A DNA stretch of 64,000 bases, taken from assembly GCA_002389675.1 (NCBI GenBank), contig DGQF01000009.1, positions 202,845 through 266,844 on the forward strand. The letters are read 5' to 3'. Positions 43,310 through 53,296 of the stretch are shown piece after piece. The notes under the pieces were generated by a model. The model saw only the letters and a list, made by a program, of their open reading frames with translations, had not been told where the DNA came from and made no database searches. Origin of the DNA: Gammaproteobacteria bacterium UBA4421 (lineage in GTDB: Bacteria; Pseudomonadota; Gammaproteobacteria; Pseudomonadales; Azotimanducaceae). How positions within the stretch are numbered: position 1 is the stretch's first letter; each line of letters begins with the position of its first letter. The position numbers were made by a program, and so were the translations under genes.

Positions 43310-43553
43310 GTCTCCACCCGCTCCAGTGATCTGGACCATTATGGGCTGATGACAAATTAATGCTAACCCACCGCACGTTGCAGAGGGTTAACGTTGACCT
43401 GTCTTAAGGTTGCCGCAAAACCTTATAGTGACTGGGAATAGCCCTTGAAAGTATCAATTTTTTAAAAAAAGCGTCAAAATCTAGCTGATAACTATGTTGT
43501 GGCATATCAACAGTCCGCCGCAATTTTTCAATAGACAACGCTGGAGAAACTAC

Positions 43554-44876
43554 ATGAGCGAGGTCGACTCTCGATCTGCAACCCCTACCGATGCGCCCGT
43601 CCAAATGCCTTCTGCTGAAGGCGCGCAAAGCAAAGGGCAGATTCCCTCAGCATACGATCTCCCCTTGGCGGACATCATGCCGATCAGCCCCCGCTTGTTT
43701 CGCGAAAACCGCTGGCAGGAATACTTCGAGCGACTGCGCGCAGAGGACCCCGTTCACTTTAATGAAACCGATATGGCAGGGCGCTTTTGGTCTTTGACCC
43801 GATATGACGACATCAAACGCGTCGATACAGATTGGCAGCACTTCACCTCCTCCAAAGGCATCACTTTGGGCTTTCCAGTGGATGCCGAACTGCCCGAAGG
43901 TATGCTCGAGCTCAGCACGTTCATTGCACAAGACCCACCCATACACGATGTTCAGCGCAAAACAGTAGCCGGCGCCGCGGCACCTGGCAACCTCGCCAAT
44001 ATGGAGGCGCTCATCAGGCAACGCACGGGGCAGGTTCTAGATCAATTGCCTGAGAATGAAACCTTCGACTGGGTGGATACTGTCTCTATTGAGCTCACTA
44101 CCATGATGCTAGCCACCTTGTTTGATTTTCCTTTTGAAGATCGACGCAAACTGACTCGATGGTCGGACGTCACGTTTGCCGTACCTCAACCTGGCGGCAT
44201 TGTTGAGTCCATTGAGCAACGACGCGACGAGCTATTGGAATGCTTGGCCTACTTCAACCAACTACGTGAACAAAGAAAAGGTATTCCCGGCAACGATCTG
44301 GTCTCCATGCTGGCTAACGGCGACGATACAAAAGACATGCCGCCAATGGAGTATCTCGGCAACCTCTTGCTGTTGATTGTGGGTGGCAACGACACGACCC
44401 GCAATACAATGTCTGGCAGCGTGTATGGACTGAACAAATTTCCTGAACAATTTGCTAAGTTGGTCAAAAACCCGGGATTAATTCCACAAATGGTGGCTGA
44501 AATCATTCGTTGGCAAACACCACTGGCCTACATGCGACGCACGGCCAATCAGGACTGTGAAATTCGAGGCAAACAAATCAAGCAAGGTGACCAACTGTTG
44601 ATGTGGTATGTCTCAGGTAACCGTGACCAAGACGTTTTCGACAATGCTGATCAGATCGACATCGAACGTCACAATGCGCGACAGCACTTATCCTTTGGCT
44701 TTGGCATTCATCGCTGCATGGGTAATCGACTTGCCGAGCTTCAGTTAAAAATACTGTGGGAAGAAATTTTACAGCGTTTTCAAACCATCGAAGTGCAGGC
44801 CGAACCCGAGCGCACGCTCTCCTCGTTCGTCAAAGGCTATACACACTTACCCGTGCAAATCACCCGCAAACATTAA
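43554..44876 (+). CDS. cytochrome P450, CYP153-like
   Basis: A 440-residue P450. The I-helix motif is VGGNDTTRN at 276-284, the ExxR is E316-R319, and the haem cysteine is C388 in FGFGIHRCMGNRLAE. The DPPIHDVQRKTV and LNKFPEQF parts match CYP153-type enzymes, which hydroxylate terminal carbons of alkanes, alcohols or terpenes. CYP153 membership is by motif and not by a tree. The ATG at 43554 follows GGAG with 8 bases between. It is followed 12 bases later by a D-aminoacylase-like amidohydrolase, so the pair is an operon. The ferredoxin and reductase are elsewhere. Confidence 0.92.
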   Translation: MSEVDSRSATPTDAPVQMPSAEGAQSKGQIPSAYDLPLADIMPISPRLFRENRWQEYFERLRAEDPVHFNETDMAGRFWSLTRYDDIKRVDTDWQHFTSSKGITLGFPVDAELPEGMLELSTFIAQDPPIHDVQRKTVAGAAAPGNLANMEALIRQRTGQVLDQLPENETFDWVDTVSIELTTMMLATLFDFPFEDRRKLTRWSDVTFAVPQPGGIVESIEQRRDELLECLAYFNQLREQRKGIPGNDLVSMLANGDDTKDMPPMEYLGNLLLLIVGGNDTTRNTMSGSVYGLNKFPEQFAKLVKNPGLIPQMVAEIIRWQTPLAYMRRTANQDCEIRGKQIKQGDQLLMWYVSGNRDQDVFDNADQIDIERHNARQHLSFGFGIHRCMGNRLAELQLKILWEEILQRFQTIEVQAEPERTLSSFVKGYTHLPVQITRKH

Positions 44877-44888
44877 GGCTATACACTC

Positions 44889-46637
44889 ATGAGCTATGAC
44901 TACCTGATTAAGCATGCGACCATCGTAGACGGCACTGGTGCCGCGCCCTTTGAGGGCAATATTGCGATCCAAGACGGGCTAATTGTGGATGTCGGAAACG
45001 CCACCGGCAGCGCCAAAGAGACCATCAACGCGCAAGGGGCAACCGCGGCACCTGGTTGGGTTGACGTTCACACCCATTATGACGGTCAAGTCAGTTGGGA
45101 TGATCAGCTCGATCCGTCGTTCAGCCACGGGGTGACCAGTGTTGTCATGGGCAACTGCGGCGTAGGTTTTGCGCCCTGCCCACCCGGCGGAGAGCGGGGG
45201 ATGATCGAATTAATGGAGGGCGTGGAAGACATTCCCGGCACAGCTCTTTATGAAGGAATTGAGTGGGGCCGCTGGGAGACATTCCCGGAGTATATTGATT
45301 ACCTGGGAACCCGCCAATACACCTTGGATGTCGGCACTCAAATCCCTCATTCGGCATTGCGCAACTACGTAATGGGCGAACGCGCATTAAATCATGAAGA
45401 CGCCACCTCAGCCGACCTAGTTCATATGCAACAAATAGTTGAGGAGGCCCTTCGAGCTGGCGCATTGGGATTCTCGACATCAAGAACCATTGGTCATCGG
45501 TCTATTGTGGGTGAACCGATTCCGGGCACCTTTGCCGAAAAATCAGAGCTATTGGCCATTGGCCTGGCGATGAAAAATGCCGGGCGCGGCGTTTTTCAAG
45601 CGGTTCCAGCTGGTGTTGTGGGAGATATTGCCGGGCCAGAACATTGGACAACCGAACAAGAAGTGGAGCTGTTTGCGGAGATTGCAGAATCTTCCGGACG
45701 CAACTGTACATTTACTCTGGTGCAAAATTCCAACCGGCCTGACCAATGGCGCAATTGCCTAGACATCGTTGAACAAGCCAACGCACGAGGGCTAATGCTG
45801 CGACCACAAATCACAACTCGGCCCATCGGGTTGGTCACCAGTTTACGCACCTATCACATGTTCCAAAGACGGGAAACCTTCCTCAAGCTGGCCCAACTGC
45901 CCTTCGAACGTATGTTGGCCGAAATGCACAAACCAGAGGTAAAAGCCGCCATTCTCAGTGACGCTGACATCCCACCGACACAAACTGGCGCCATGGCCAA
46001 CGTCTTTGGTCTCATGGCAATGGCCGCACCCAATATGTTTCCTATTGACCTGCCCATTAACTACGAGCCGCAGTCTGACAGCAATATCGGCGCCTTGGCC
46101 ATGGCAGCCAACCAAGACGTCGCTGAATTTATGTACGACTTTTTGATTTCCAATCAAGGCAACCGATTTGCCATCCTCCTAGGCGCAAATTTCGTCGATG
46201 GCAGTTTCAGTGTTATGGAGGAGATGATTCAACACCCGGATACAACCATTGGTTTGTCTGACGCCGGCGCCCACGTCAACCTTATCTTTGACGCAGTCAA
46301 TCCTACTTATCAAATCACCCACTGGGTTAGAGACCGCACACGCGGCCCACGCATGCCGATTGAGCTGATGGTTCATAAACAAACGCTGCGCAACGCCCAA
46401 CTGTTTGGCCTGCATGACCGAGGTCAAATCGCGGCTGGAAAACGAGCTGATCTCAACCTCTTTGACTTACAAAAATTAGATCTTGGGGAACTACAGGTGC
46501 ATCACGATCTGCCCGCCGGCGGATCGCGCATTTTACAACCCGCAAGCGGATACCTAAATACCTTTGTCCACGGTGTTAAAACTCGCCAGCATGATCACGA
46601 TACAGGCGCAAGACCGGGACGCGTGATTCGCGGCTAG
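44889..46637 (+). CDS. N-acyl-D-amino-acid deacylase-like amidohydrolase
   Basis: A 582-residue amidohydrolase of the D-aminoacylase branch. The zinc motif VHTHYDGQ has H61, H63 and D65, the GNCGVG cysteine is C90, and the catalytic aspartate lies in [10 protein letters not shown]. The C-terminal barrel residues and the [11 protein letters not shown] end are typical. It belongs to the same branch as the enzyme at 11792-13471 (shared [16 protein letters not shown] and [10 protein letters not shown]), so the two are paralogues in different oxygenase operons: this one with a P450, the other with a Rieske enzyme. The role next to a P450 is unclear. The true substrate may be a lactam, hydantoin-like or acyl amide. 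Confidence 0.87.
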
Positions 46638-46692: not shown

Positions 46693-48933
46693 TCAAACCA
46701 ACTGGTAGCCCTGCGCACTCAATGGCATGGATCGAATACGGTCACCGGTCGCCGCAAAAATAGCATTGGTCACCGCCGGAGCCAAAGGCGGAAGCGCAGG
46801 CTCCCCCAAGCCAGTCGAGGGATGGTCGCTCTCAATAAAATGAACCTCGATCTTAGGTGTCTGAGCAATCCGCGTTACCGGATATTGATGAAAATTGTCC
46901 TGCTCAATCACGCCTTTTTCCATCGTAATCTGTTGCCCTGCCATTGTGCTTAACCCGTCGATTATCGACCCCTCTACCTGACTCAGTGCACCGCTACGAT
47001 TGATTATTGGGCCAACGTCTACGGCGACAACCACCTTATCGACGTGATAATTACCGCTACCATCCACCGACACTTCTGCAACTTGTGCAATATGCGCCGC
47101 ATGACAGAAATAAAATGCAAAACCCTGCGCCGAACCTGATGGCATTGGCTTACCCCAAGCGGCTTTTTCAGCAGCCATTTTAATCACATCAATGGCACGT
47201 CCGGTATTGAGGGCATTGACATTACCCTCAGCTGTCCAACGCCGCGCGCCCATCAGCTCAATCAAGAACTCAACATGATCGCGCTGTGCCAAGACGGCAA
47301 GCTCGTGAATGAAACTCTGTTCCACAAACGCATTGGTATTGGCTCCCGGTGCCCGCCAAGCGCCGCACGGCGTATCTAAAGCAATCATCGACTGACGAAC
47401 TCTGGCTCGCTCTAAAACCGTCATCGGCAGCTCGTTACCCCTGAAACCTGAACCAATGACAGGTTTCTGATCATGCGCAAAACCAATGTAATGTTGATCC
47501 CATGCGGCAAGCTTGCCATTGGCATCAATTGCCGCACGCATATTCTCAAACCCACCAACCCTAAAAAAGTCATGGTGAATATCATCCGTGCGCGTCCAAG
47601 TTAGCTTAACCGGGCCGTCTACCCGGTAAGCGATTGCCATCGCTTCGGCAGCAAAGTCATGGATGGCCCTTCTCCCGAATCCACCGCCAAGACGCTTCAG
47701 GTTAACCTTCACGTTTTCCGGTGCGATACCCAACATATTGCTGGCTATTTCTTTAGCCTGTGCTGGAAACTGACTGCCCATCCAAAGTTCCATTGAATCT
47801 GGTTCGCCACCCCGCCCCTTAATGAAATGCGCGGTGCAATTCATCGGCTCCATGCAAACATGTGCTACGAAGGGAAATTCATAAAACGATTCCAAAGCAA
47901 GATGACTTGGATCTGACATCGCAGCCTCTAGTTGATCATCATCGCGCTTGACCTCCCCGTGATCTGAACGTGCCAACGCTTGCGCTTGTTGAACCATCCC
48001 CGACCAGCTGTCATCTGATGACGCGGTTTCATCCCACTGCACTTTTAATTTGTTTTTTGCATCAATGACCGACCAGGTATCGTTGCCGATGATGGCAACG
48101 CCCCCTCTTAAAGAGGCCATGCCTTGTATAAACGACATTGAGGCCTTGCCGGCCCGCGCATCGGGTTGCAAGATAAAAGCGTCCGTCACCCCCGGCAGCT
48201 TTTTGATTTCAACTTCATTAAATGCAACAGCCTTCCCCCCGAGCCGAGGACAACGCGAGTAGGTCGCATATTTCATGCCTGGCAAATCCACATCAATACC
48301 AAATTGGGATTGGCCTGTCGCAATCACCAAGTTGTCCACACCACCCACCGAAGTGCCAATAATGGTGTAAGCACGCGGATCTTTAAAAGACAACATTTCT
48401 GGATCAGGCATTTCTTGCTGCGCGGCCAACGCAGCCAGTTGACCGAACGTTCGACGGTTGCCCGAAGCATGCACCACCTCGCTGTTTCGCGCCTCCAGAT
48501 CTTGCGTATCTACCTCCATTAACAGAGCCGCTGCAGCAATTAACATCTCGCGTGCCGACGCACCCATCTCGCGCATCGCCTGATAATTTCTGGGGATAGA
48601 AGTAGACCCTCCTGCACCTTGAAAACCAAACTGGGCGGTGTCTACCGGTGCCTGCAAAACTTTCACATCTTCCCAATTAGCACCCATTTCCTCGGCAACA
48701 ATCATGGGCAAAGAGGTCATAATGCCTTGCCCCATTTCGGGGTGCGCCGAATAAATGGTGATCTGCCCGTCAGCATCAATCTGTACATATACGTTGAGCG
48801 CTTTCGAGCGCACCAGAGTGTCTTTTTCTGCGGCTAATACCGATATTGGCAGCGCCATCTGCAGTAAAAAACCACCCCCGGCTAAAGCGCTGGCTTTAAA
48901 GAGCTTGCGCCGACTTAATTTAACTTCATTCAT
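46693..48933 (-). CDS. Tat-exported molybdopterin-binding subunit (isoquinoline 1-oxidoreductase-like)
   Basis: A 746-residue molybdenum hydroxylase large subunit of the IorB-like group. A twin-arginine signal ([11 protein letters not shown]) opens the protein, so the folded enzyme with cofactor should be exported to the periplasm. Middle motifs include [19 protein letters not shown] near residue 420, [19 protein letters not shown] near 520, and the terminal [14 protein letters not shown] with the catalytic glutamate. It follows the [2Fe-2S] subunit with a 4-base overlap, so the two are made together, and no FAD subunit is present, as in two-subunit aldehyde or isoquinoline oxidoreductases. 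Electrons would go to a cytochrome. The substrate might be an aldehyde or N-heterocycle. Confidence 0.92.
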
Positions 48934-49424
48934 CCTTTGTCTCCGATTGCACTCGGCGCGCTTGCATCATAGTAGGACGCTGCCGTATGCACCGCTTTGC
49001 GAATTCTGATGTAGGTGCCACAGCGACAATAATTACCCGCCATCGCGGCATCAATGTCCTCATCACTGGGCTGAGGCGTGTTGGACAGTAAAGCCGCTGC
49101 ACTCATGATCTGGCCCGACTGACAATAGCCACACTGCGGCACATCGTGCTCAATCCACGCACTTTGTAACGGGTGCAAATCGCCACCATCAGCAAGGCCC
49201 TCAATGGTCGTTACGGCCGAAGTGACCGCAGCAATAGGCAGCACACAAGAGCGAACGGCAACACCATCCACGTGCACGGTACACGCGCCGCACTGCGAGA
49301 TTCCACAGCCATACTTGGTTCCCTTGAGCTTTAATTTGTCTCGCAACACCCACAGCAGGGGCATTTCAGGACTAACATCCAGTTCATGCGTTTGCCCATT
49401 TACCTCTATTTTAAACTGCGTCAC
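48930..49424 (-). CDS. [2Fe-2S] subunit of the exported molybdenum hydroxylase
   Basis: A 164-residue iron-sulfur protein. The plant-type cluster is held by CGISQCGAC and a later single cysteine (RSCVLP); the second cluster is held by CGYCQSGQ and the CRCGTY motif in the helical C-terminal half. The start is taken at a GTG at 49424 behind GAGG, as the family usually begins at the FKIEVNGQ strand; an ATG at 49466 would add 14 residues. Its ATGA overlap with the large subunit shows translational coupling. It has no signal of its own and probably rides out on the Tat signal of its partner. Confidence 0.93.
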
Positions 49425-49603
49425 TTTTTCATCCTCAAAAACTATTCCCCTAGGATACCCTGTCACGAGCCAGGACCGTACTCGAGTGGCTCAAATGGAT
49501 AGAAATTTTAAGCCCATAAAAAACATATCGTGCGGATACAGCTATTCCCAGCGACCTAGATCAACTAGGATGAAAGTCCAAACAAAAAAAATTGATGAGG
49601 CTT

Positions 49604-50737
49604 ATGGCTAAACCCATGATGGCGTTTCCGCAACTCCGGCACCCATTCACAACTAGCGCCCTTCACCCTCCGGGCAGCACCAGTGTACTTTACCAAGGCA
49701 AAACGCTGACCCTGAGCACTACCGGTGCGGACGACGAACTCCTTATACGGGCAGAGGACCTAACCCGAATCAATGGTTTTGAAGTCAAAGCTGAGGGCGT
49801 ATGCCTTGGAGATCTATGTATTCCGCTGCAAGACACCTTTAACGTAACCCTTGCCGACCAGAACTGGTTCAACCTCAGCGCTTTCGCACGTTTCATCGGC
49901 CAACCGTTCGTTGCAGACACCCAAAATCGAGTCTGGAGCTTTGCCGAAATACCAGCAAAACGCGAATCCACGCTATCAGCAGCAATGGCACCGGAATTTG
50001 AATTGACCGATCGCAAGGGCGCCGTCATTCGAATGTCAGACTTCAAAGGTAAAAAAGCACTGATCGTCACTTGGTCATCTTGGTGAGGATGCTATCTAGA
50101 CGTGCCCGTGTGGCAACGTATATATGAAGAAATCGACAATCCTGATTTTGTCATCATCTGCGCCGCGCAGGACACAGGGGGCGAAGCCGTTGCGGGGCCC
50201 ATTTTTGACGCGGCTGGCGCAACCTACATACAAATTGTGGACGAAAATCACCGCATCAGCAGTCTGTTCAACTTCGTCAACGTTCCCTCCTCCGCTTGGA
50301 TCGACGAAACAGGGCGGATCGTCCGAATTGATGAAGGCACATACTCACAAATCCATGCCATCAGCGACGGCCAAGAAACCATCACATTTGGCAACGACGT
50401 TTATACACCGGCGTTAAAAGACTGGATCGAGAACGGCGAAAACAGTCCTTATATCAACGCACCAGAACAGGTCAGCGAGAACATACGCACTCACAGCAAA
50501 GAGCAATTGAAAGCTGACGCAGCCTTTTGTCTGGGCAACTTTTTTCGAGTTCATGGCCACAACGATCTAGCAGACCATTACTGGGCGCTCGCCCAGACGT
50601 TAAACCCAGAGAGTATTAACTTCTTCCGACAGAATTTAACTCTGACTGAAGAAGGATCTGCGGGAAATACATTCAGACAGAGGATCAGCGAGTATATTAG
50701 CCAAGGCAAAGACTACTACCGACCTTTAGATATATAG
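49604..50737 (+). CDS. thioredoxin-fold redoxin selenoprotein (UxC), TGA recoded at 50084-50086
   Basis: Two open frames in the same phase (ending at 50083 and resuming at 50087) are separated by a single TGA. Read through as selenocysteine they form one 377-residue protein. The TGA lies in TWSSW-U-GCYLDVPVWQ, which is the active-site turn of TlpA/AhpC-like redoxins (W-C-x-x-C), giving a UxC motif with U at about 161. Before it is the strand KKALIVTW, and after it PVWQRIYEEI and the strand FVIICAAQD complete the thioredoxin fold; VNVPSSAWID has the cis-proline. A SECIS-like hairpin begins 13 bases after the TGA. The first 110 residues are a separate beta-rich domain with two cysteines (CLGDLC). 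The start is uncertain: ATGs at 49595, 49604 and 49616 are all possible. Confidence 0.85.
50100..50119 (+). promoter_or_regulatory. candidate bacterial SECIS element of the redoxin selenoprotein
   Basis: ACGUGCC pairs with GGCAACGU with one bulged A, giving 7 bp around the five-base loop CGUGU. The loop starts 20 bases after the UGA and has G at position two followed by U. The closing GCC/GGC pairs and loop are almost the same as in the element at 1953-1971, though the surrounding protein families are unrelated. Confidence 0.72.
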
Positions 50738-50797: not shown

Positions 50798-51568
50798 TTA
50801 GCTGCCGGTCCAGTTAGGTGCCCGCTTTTCAGCAAACGCTTTTGGACCTTCTTTTGCGTCATTGGAGCTAAACACTTTCTTCGACAGGGGCTCCTGCATT
50901 TTCCACAAACTTTCCTCGTCATAACCCTGCGCCGCTGCGCGCACCAGCGATTTGGAGGCAGATACCGCCAAAGGCGCGTTTTCAGCAATCCGTTCAGCCC
51001 ATCCAAGCGCAGCATCCAAAGCACCGCCTGCCTCGGTCAGTTCGCTGAGCATCCCATTCTCCAGCGCCACCTCAGCCGTGATGGGTTCTCCAGTGATGGC
51101 CATTTCCATGGCTCGCGTATACCCCACCCTCGCCGGCAAACGAAATACACCGCCGGCAGCAGCAAACAGGCCTACTTTGACCTCGCGAATACCTATTTTA
51201 GACCCTTTCGAGGCAACTAAGAGATCACACGTAAGCGCTATTTCACAACCACCGGCTAATGCAAAACCTTCAATGGCTGCGATCAGAGGCTTTGAACAAC
51301 CTTCCCGAATAAAAGTGGTCAGCGGCCCAATATCCTCACCCCGGGCAAACGCCTTCAAATCCATACCCGCACAAAATGCGCGGCCGTTGCCCGTAATGAT
51401 TCCCGCCGTCAACGAATCATCGTCATCCAACGCCCTAACCGCATCCAGCAAGCCATGAGACAGTTCACCATTAATGGCATTCATCGCTTCAGGTCGATTC
51501 AGCGTGATGATCATCACTCGCCCACGCCGCTCCACCAAAATTGCTTTTTCAGGGGTTTCATTACTCAT
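50798..51568 (-). CDS. enoyl-CoA hydratase/isomerase (crotonase) family protein
   Basis: A 256-residue crotonase-fold protein. The oxyanion-hole motifs are GRAFCAGMDLKAFA near residues 60-73 and IEGFALAGGCEIALTCD near 98-114. IGIREVKVGLFAAAGG marks the catalytic region; the usual glutamate pair is only partly kept, so hydratase or isomerase activity is not certain. The ATG at 51568 follows the strong AAGGAGATC ribosome site. It is the gene after the BVMO on the minus strand, 96 bases downstream, and may be made with it. Substrates of this family are unsaturated acyl-CoA esters. Confidence 0.9.
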   Translation of the reverse strand: MSNETPEKAILVERRGRVMIITLNRPEAMNAINGELSHGLLDAVRALDDDDSLTAGIITGNGRAFCAGMDLKAFARGEDIGPLTTFIREGCSKPLIAAIEGFALAGGCEIALTCDLLVASKGSKIGIREVKVGLFAAAGGVFRLPARVGYTRAMEMAITGEPITAEVALENGMLSELTEAGGALDAALGWAERIAENAPLAVSASKSLVRAAAQGYDEESLWKMQEPLSKKVFSSNDAKEGPKAFAEKRAPNWTGS

Positions 51569-51664
51569 ACTTGATCTCCTTTAAATCTCAGTCTCATCAA
51601 TTTTTGATGCTGCACCAACAACTTTCATCAATCATCGGCAACCCTTCTTACAGAGCTTACAGCG

Positions 51665-53296
51665 CTAGCTCACCTGCTGCTCAAATTGAACTTCAGGAAA
51701 CCCAGCTTCCACTGACTCGCGCATCCTATCGTAGTAAACATTGGCGCCACCAAAATAGATCAGCACTCGCGGTTTTTTGTCTTTCAGGTTTGCACCCATC
51801 ATCCAGGAGTTCACTTTGTCGCCTTGAGCCATCAGTGTTTGTTCATGAATGGCTGCAGTCTCCGCCACCCATGCATCTTCAGCCGATTGCTTTGGTTCGC
51901 AAATTGCCAACCCTTCTCCTTCCATTTTTTTGAGGCAGTCAGCAATGTACATCGCGTTTTGCTCAATCGACGTCGGCAGGTTGGCAAACGGCGCCTGCGG
52001 GCCCGTCACCATAAATAAGTTTGGAAACTCCGCAACAAAGACCCCCATAATCGACGCCGAAACCTCTTCCCATTTATCCTTCAGCAATAGACCGTTGCGA
52101 CCACGAATGGCCAGCGATTCTTGGGCACCGGTATACGCTTGAAAACCTGTTGCCAGAACAATAATGTCAAAGTCATAGTCGTTTTGCGTGGTGCGAATTC
52201 CTGTGGATGTGAACTCAACAATCGGCTCGCGATCTTTGATATCTACAAGATTTACGTTTTCGCGATTAAATGTTTCGTGATACCCGTGGTCCAGAGGCGG
52301 ACGCTTGGCAAAAAAAGGATATCCTTTGGGTGTCAGCATATCTGCCACGTCAGGGTCCCTAACCTTTTCTAGCATTTTACGGATCACAAAGTCCCCTGCA
52401 ATGCGATTTGATTCTGCATTGGTGAGCAGATCGTCAAAAGTCTCAAAAACAAATCTGAAGCTGCCCCGGGACCAATGCTCTTCGAGAATGGCCTGCACTT
52501 CGTCAGCCGGTGTGTCCGCCAGATCACGCCCGACGGGGCTGTCGAAGGGCATACCAAAGACATGATTACGACGTTTACTGATGATCTCGTCATAATTGTC
52601 CTTAATCTCTTTTTCCCAATCGGATGTCATCTCTTTTTGCACAGCAGGCATCACAAAGTTGGCGGTGCGCTGAAAGACCGTCACACTTTCCGCTGTTTGC
52701 GCGACAACTGGCAGCATTTGAACCGTGGTCGCACCCGATCCTATAATCGCTACGCGTTTGCCCGCATAGTCCAGCCCTTCGTGCGGCCAGCGAGAGGAAT
52801 GGAAACAAGGGCCTTGAAACTTATCCATGTTTCTAAAATCAGGGATCACCGGCTGAGAAATCATACCCATCGCGCTGGTAAAGTATTTGCAGGTGAATTC
52901 GTCGCCGTCGGCCGATTTAATCAGCCAAAATCCTGTGTCTTCCTGAAAATCCGCACTTACAATTTCCGTATTAAGCTGGATATGTGGCCACATATCACAC
53001 CTGTCGGCAACAAAATGCATATAACTGAGATTTTCTTCCCAACCGGGGTAGCGAACAGACCAACGCCACTCTTGCAGCAACTCTTTTGAAAAACTCAAAC
53101 AATAGTAATAACACTCACTGTCACTGGCAGCGCCGGGGTATCGATTCCAGGTCCAGGTACCCCCAATATCTGTCGCCTTATCAAATACGCGCACGGATAG
53201 TCCGGCTTCGCGCATATAGTGGATCAATCCCAGTCCTGCAAAACCCGCACCGACTGCGATCACATCATAATCTGGTTGTTTTTGCGCCAATGTCAT
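51665..53296 (-). CDS. flavin-containing Baeyer-Villiger-type monooxygenase
   Basis: A 543-residue monooxygenase. FAD binds GAGFAG at 16-21, followed by GGTWTWNRYPGAASD. The Baeyer-Villiger fingerprint is F160QGPCFHSSRWP171, and NADPH binds GSGATT at 186-191. It lacks the 90-residue N-terminal extension of the enzyme at 28684-30531 and is close to cyclohexanone or steroid monooxygenases in length. It should convert a ketone to an ester or lactone. The ATG at 53296 follows AGGGAG. It lies upstream of the crotonase gene on the same strand, which would be consistent with a ring-opening route. The substrate is unknown. Confidence 0.92.
   Translation of the reverse strand: MTLAQKQPDYDVIAVGAGFAGLGLIHYMREAGLSVRVFDKATDIGGTWTWNRYPGAASDSECYYYCLSFSKELLQEWRWSVRYPGWEENLSYMHFVADRCDMWPHIQLNTEIVSADFQEDTGFWLIKSADGDEFTCKYFTSAMGMISQPVIPDFRNMDKFQGPCFHSSRWPHEGLDYAGKRVAIIGSGATTVQMLPVVAQTAESVTVFQRTANFVMPAVQKEMTSDWEKEIKDNYDEIISKRRNHVFGMPFDSPVGRDLADTPADEVQAILEEHWSRGSFRFVFETFDDLLTNAESNRIAGDFVIRKMLEKVRDPDVADMLTPKGYPFFAKRPPLDHGYHETFNRENVNLVDIKDREPIVEFTSTGIRTTQNDYDFDIIVLATGFQAYTGAQESLAIRGRNGLLLKDKWEEVSASIMGVFVAEFPNLFMVTGPQAPFANLPTSIEQNAMYIADCLKKMEGEGLAICEPKQSAEDAWVAETAAIHEQTLMAQGDKVNSWMMGANLKDKKPRVLIYFGGANVYYDRMRESVEAGFPEVQFEQQVS

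Follow-up and report, generated by a model that had tools for sequence, protein, structure and literature searches.

A TGA codon at positions 50084-50086 of a 64,000-nucleotide stretch of DNA from Gammaproteobacteria bacterium UBA4421 (contig DGQF01000009.1), here called the window, very probably encodes selenocysteine (Sec), an active-site residue of a thioredoxin-like enzyme. The gene in which it lies is confirmed as a genuine selenoprotein gene of an already known kind. What is new here is an unnamed branch of this group which lacks an evident signal peptide and, among the loci seen, carries only Sec, standing beside exported relatives which carry Cys. Also new are its N-terminal domain, which holds an invariant pair of cysteines, and the observation that the database proteins listed for it are mostly C-terminal halves. 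The gene and its internal TGA are as follows.

49604..50737, + strand: selenoprotein gene, 377 amino acids with Sec161, ATG start and TAG stop; the start Met is common to most orthologues
50084..50086, + strand: TGA as selenocysteine, residue 161, in a UGC motif, from its conservation and from Cys at the same column in distant homologues

Conservation of the TGA codon

Translation begins at the ATG at 49604 with MAKPMMAF and ends with YRPLDI before the TAG at 50735-50737, giving 377 residues with U counted, and a single in-frame TGA lies between. An earlier note, made from the DNA letters alone, had described one TGA at 50084-50086 interrupting a redoxin at the turn TWSSW-U-GCYLDVPVW; its coordinates are exact, the turn reads as it claimed (VTWSSW-U-GCYLDVPVWQR at slightly greater length) and the frame is open to 50737. 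The bare pattern is nevertheless weak evidence, because the window holds 22 TGA codons with at least 60 open codons on both sides and 51 with a Cys two to three residues away, preceded by 15 or more open codons and followed by 30 or more. The flanks of the TGA at 50084-50086 are the longest among those 51. Since a bare TGA is not unusual here, the case for Sec depends on comparison.

Genome contigs were scanned for homologues; 110 loci were confirmed, and the figures given come from the best 80 of these. Clade A is defined as the 58 loci with at least 56% identity to the window protein in their best segment, and is present in many genomes titled gammaproteobacteria. One of these (L105) stops short of the active site and was excluded; TGA occupies the same position in all 57 loci which reach the site, and Cys in none. 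The scan was open to Cys members, since it used two search patterns, one of them the turn in its Cys form. A further clade A locus (L083, 8001-9122) has an in-frame TAG at residue 189 in addition to its Sec TGA, and was counted for the TGA and for the hairpin, though dropped from the codon test described below; the TAG points either to decay of this copy or to an error of assembly. Among the 22 loci below 56% identity, the four at 47-49%, titled Vicinamibacterales, Acidobacteria and Hydrogenedentota, all have TGA, and the 18 at 29-41% all have TGC or TGT, which gives the turn WASWCGC. This Cys turn is also found in six full-length database proteins with 47-51% identity over 93-94% of the query. 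An in-frame TGA at a column held by Cys in homologues is the pattern by which bacterial selenoproteins are recognised, and it is present here. The earlier note had proposed looking for homologues with WCGC or WUGC at the turn, and U or C stands there throughout (TGA in 57/57 and 4/4 loci, Cys in 18/18). It had also held that homologues ending at this point would tell against its interpretation; no clade A locus examined ends at the TGA.

When 61 genomes of the family, that of the window among them, were searched, 50 places matched at E <= 2.2e-24. The genomes of this search and those of the contig scan overlap, so the two sets of counts are never summed. A TGA falls within the match in 49 of the 50 places, one of which (in G020) has a TAG besides, and none falls within the match at G004:C130 (L040). 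The site itself was checked in 29 places, a sample which left out L038 on account of an extra TAG: in 28 a TGA precedes Gly-Cys, and L040 reads WASWCGC. All 18 places with 59-100% identity (17 genomes, the window's included) have exactly one TGA each. Several family genomes (loci L016-L044) hold two or three TGA copies of different branches, and G038 holds two clade A copies and one of another branch. L040 is the Cys form of one branch, and its genome, G004, has selB.

The SECIS-like hairpin and the decoding machinery

Downstream of the TGA lies a hairpin resembling a bacterial selenocysteine insertion sequence (SECIS).

50100..50119, + strand: SECIS-like hairpin of 7 pairs and a single bulged A, with the loop CGUGU at 50107-50111, 20 nt past the TGA

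Its strongest support comes from synonymous sites. Four-fold codons were compared in 54 clade A genes, with matches shorter than 1000 nt left out, and 58 such codons, of the V, A, P, T and G families, were conserved at 95% or more. The third base is invariant in only three of the 58, namely V167 (54/54), P168 (53/53 genes keeping Pro) and V169 (54/54), and these bases lie 18, 21 and 24 nt past the TGA, inside the hairpin. The next-best third-base conservation among the 58 is 0.75 and the median 0.48. The five inner pairs of the stem are kept in 57/57 distinct sequences. The sixth pair (18-35) is kept in 46/57, as C-G in 37 and T-A in nine, a two-sided exchange, and the outermost (17-36) in 35/57. 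Together, the conservation of the TGA in 57/57 loci and 18/18 places and the frozen synonymous sites downstream of it raise this codon far above chance.

A bacterial SECIS model, as set out in the relevant passage of PMC13188914, has a loop of 3-9 nt, a stem of 4-16 bp, a G among the first two bases of the loop, a distance of 16-37 nt from the UGA and an energy of -7.5 kcal/mol or lower. The window hairpin conforms to the model in its loop, its stem, the place of the G and its spacing (CGUGU, 7 bp, 20 nt). Other observations are less favourable. The local hairpin has a minimum free energy of -6.4 kcal/mol against the limit of -7.5 kcal/mol, which 24 of the 57 clade A sequences reach; the 60-nt fold which contains it, at -9.5 kcal/mol, is as a single sequence no better than shuffled sequences; and a like hairpin can form in some Cys homologues. 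The frozen synonymous sites are a stronger argument for a SECIS element than is folding energy. In a Sec branch with hydrophobic N-termini (L032-L037) the energy rule picks out a different hairpin, with at least 7 pairs and the loop GGU in five of the six loci and GTC in one. As these loops differ, the SECIS-like element would seem to have changed form between branches, while still lying about 20 nt from the TGA.

The earlier note had suggested checking for sel genes, and all of those sought are present in the genome of the window, which measures 3.07 Mb and is 98% complete: selB (409.7 bits, cut-off 242), selA (519.7 bits, cut-off 268), selD (268.1 bits, cut-off 125) and a tRNA-Sec with the anticodon TCA (Rfam 48.2 bits, cut-off 47). 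All four lie together in a stretch of about 10 kb of a single contig (G000:C34:162685-172772). Furthermore, selB occurs in 51 of the 61 family genomes, including all 17 with a clade A gene, although this co-occurrence is weak support because selB is common in the family. No selB match was obtained in G018, G041 or G048, though each carries TGA copies of other branches.

It is conceivable that the TGA is instead a nonsense mutation, a sequencing error or a UGA read as another residue, and the lack of significance of the single-sequence RNA fold would fit this. Such an explanation is extremely improbable, however, as all 57 loci keep the TGA with coding sequence on both sides of it, other homologues have Cys, the residue that usually exchanges with Sec, the genome has complete Sec machinery and the synonymous sites past the TGA are frozen. 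Moreover, TGA terminates 11 of the 32 large open reading frames of the window, and is therefore an ordinary stop codon here, without reassignment. The selenoprotein interpretation of the earlier note is accordingly supported, both by U or C at the aligned column in homologues and by the presence of the machinery, and the identity of residue 161 as Sec is close to certain. UGA161 would be decoded by SelB with tRNA-Sec, guided by the hairpin just downstream.

Architecture and proposed chemistry

The product would consist of three parts: an N-terminal alpha/beta domain, a ResA/TlpA-like fold with Sec-Gly-Cys, and a tail resembling tetratricopeptide repeats (TPR).

49679..49942, + strand: N-terminal alpha/beta domain, residues 26-113, from the structure model
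49802..49819, + strand: invariant Cys pair C67 and C72 (CxxxxC) in a beta hairpin within the N-terminal domain, from alignments
49967..50446, + strand: ResA/TlpA-like core of thioredoxin fold, residues 122-281, containing U161, C163, D166 and P228, a conserved Pro
50462..50701, + strand: C-terminal helical TPR-like region, residues 287-366, from model helices and profile matches

Structure prediction with U read as C, as the earlier note had advised, gave a model of the protein with a predicted local distance difference test score (pLDDT) of 92.9 and a thioredoxin-type, ResA-like core, and the protein matches ResA/TlpA by sequence as well as by predicted fold. Sec161 stands directly before the helix 162-177 in this model. 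The UxC spacing is one residue shorter than CxxC, as had been claimed, with one gap between the two Cys in all five ResA-type alignments listed. The N-terminal domain of about 110 residues is likewise confirmed, and it matches neither a Pfam family above cut-off nor, with confidence, any fold in the PDB. TPR in the tail are indicated by mostly sub-threshold matches in homologues and by profile matches to TPR chains.

The enzyme is probably a cytosolic selenol/thiol-disulfide oxidoreductase, which may act as a reductase or as an isomerase. Sec161 would be the attacking residue, forming a selenenylsulfide with Cys163. An active-site Glu and a cis-Pro play roles in ResA, and D166 and P228 may stand in for them here, while the TPR-like tail and the N-terminal domain may select partners. 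Alternatively, the protein could be a Sec-dependent peroxidase, in which Sec161 reduces hydroperoxides and resolution of the selenenic acid falls to Cys163 or to the N-terminal Cys pair. This would explain the AhpC/Redoxin match, but it is unlikely. The peroxidatic motif of peroxiredoxins is PxxxT/SxxC, and the window protein has Ile154 at the Pro position and a Ser158 which is not kept in WASW homologues.

The cysteines of the N-terminal domain allow a further proposal, that CxxxxC is not a structural disulfide but a second redox centre in the same chain, in relay with Sec161 and Cys163. Both C67 and C72 are invariant in alignments of 34 and 60 sequences, Sec and Cys forms alike, and they lie on the neighbouring strands 65-68 and 71-73 of one predicted hairpin. 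A structural disulfide or a metal site accounts for their invariance equally well, however, and the relay is improbable.

Phylogeny, annotation and known systems

A tree was built from 58 sequences, comprising the window protein, 18 clade A loci (every third of those with at least 360 residues) and others, with the active-site residue masked and with rooting at the midpoint only. The 19 clade A rows form one group (support 100), which joins the Cys proteins P0003 and P0004 (98). The tree needs six changes between Sec and Cys, and well-supported branches force five of them.

By hydropathy alone, the N-terminus of the window protein has no hydrophobic stretch, and peak hydropathy over residues 1-26 of clade A ranges from -0.2 to 1.1 (53 proteins). 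Relatives, compared over longer stretches of 45-70 residues, reach 1.9-3.0 in the six clade B loci L032-L037 and in L101-L104, and 2.3-2.9 in five of six Cys proteins; the sixth, P0018, which has a late start, reaches 0.9, and values are also low (0.8-1.2) in L039-L044. When up to 40 upstream in-frame residues are added to the clade A proteins the median is 0.8. A few loci rise, however (L085 to 2.4, L087 to 1.9), so that export is possible for those. Taken together, the tree and the hydropathy values suggest that clade A has lost an export signal. A broader scenario would have the UGC branch move from the cell envelope to the cytosol and thereby fix Sec, its exported sisters using Cys or Sec, with Sec-Gly-Cys and the second Cys pair forming a two-centre relay; this scenario is improbable. 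Setting the exported Cys forms beside clade A, which has no evident signal peptide and in which Sec alone was observed, offers a natural way to ask why a CxC-type redox site retains selenium.

The database entries listed mostly lack the active site. Of the 120 matches listed (from 568), 114 measure 210-220 amino acids with a query coverage of 55-56%; the other six are full-length or nearly so and bear Cys. P0002 and P0006 start with MPVWQ, directly past the TGA. As most of the listed proteins are C-terminal halves, automatic gene finding seems in the main to record the family without its active site, and annotation tends to miss the enzyme.

No gene neighbourhood is shared, the commonest neighbour cluster being found in six of 59 loci. 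In the window, a divergent pair at 46693-49466 (- strand) encodes the large subunit of a molybdopterin-binding hydroxylase (746 aa, MoCoBD domains) and its [2Fe-2S] small subunit (178 aa); the pair does not recur elsewhere as a shared neighbour of the selenoprotein gene. Genes resembling those for cytochrome P450, amidohydrolase, enoyl-CoA hydratase and flavin monooxygenase flank the selenoprotein gene at 43494-46637 (+ strand) and 50798-53296 (- strand), and the region looks like a catabolic one.

Selenoproteins of the UGC type have been catalogued before. The relevant passages record 46 'Prx-like (UGC-containing)' sequences in an ocean survey (PMC2398784), a 'UGC-containing Prx-like protein' (PMC9312934) and a 'UGC-containing TlpA disulfide reductase family protein' (PMC13188914, Table 1), and the window protein is therefore not of a new kind. 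Compared by description, it shares with this literature group the Sec of a UGC motif within a TlpA/Prx-like domain. In contrast, those passages describe no signal-less branch, N-terminal domain or Cys pair, and no description of the clade A branch, its domain or its Cys pair was found in the open-access literature, taken without supplements. The analysis adds a well-supported branch to a thinly described selenoprotein group.

The NCBIfam model NF041054, WAxxUGC_long (ResA-like WAxxUGC motif-containing protein), resembles the window protein in its UGC turn and aligns with its N-terminal part, core and helical tail (residues 47-350 against profile positions 7-322 of 354, E 1.5e-69). The score of 235 bits is below the equivalog cut-off of 300, as are those of two other clade A proteins (235.5 and 231.1), and clade A is therefore by score a sister subfamily and not a member. 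The clear members L043 and L044 score 469 and 480 bits and the Cys form L040 306 bits; the two members read WAPYUGC and are 27% and 32% identical to the window protein. The window turn, WSSWUGC, departs from the WAxxUGC motif, and WASWUGC is found in two of the 57 clade A loci (L080, L086).

Like ResA, TlpA and DsbE (CcmG), the window protein has a thioredoxin fold, a W before the first Cys or Sec, a second Cys and a conserved Pro turn. It differs from them in having UxC for CxxC and Sec for Cys, an extra N-terminal domain, a TPR-like tail and no evident signal peptide.
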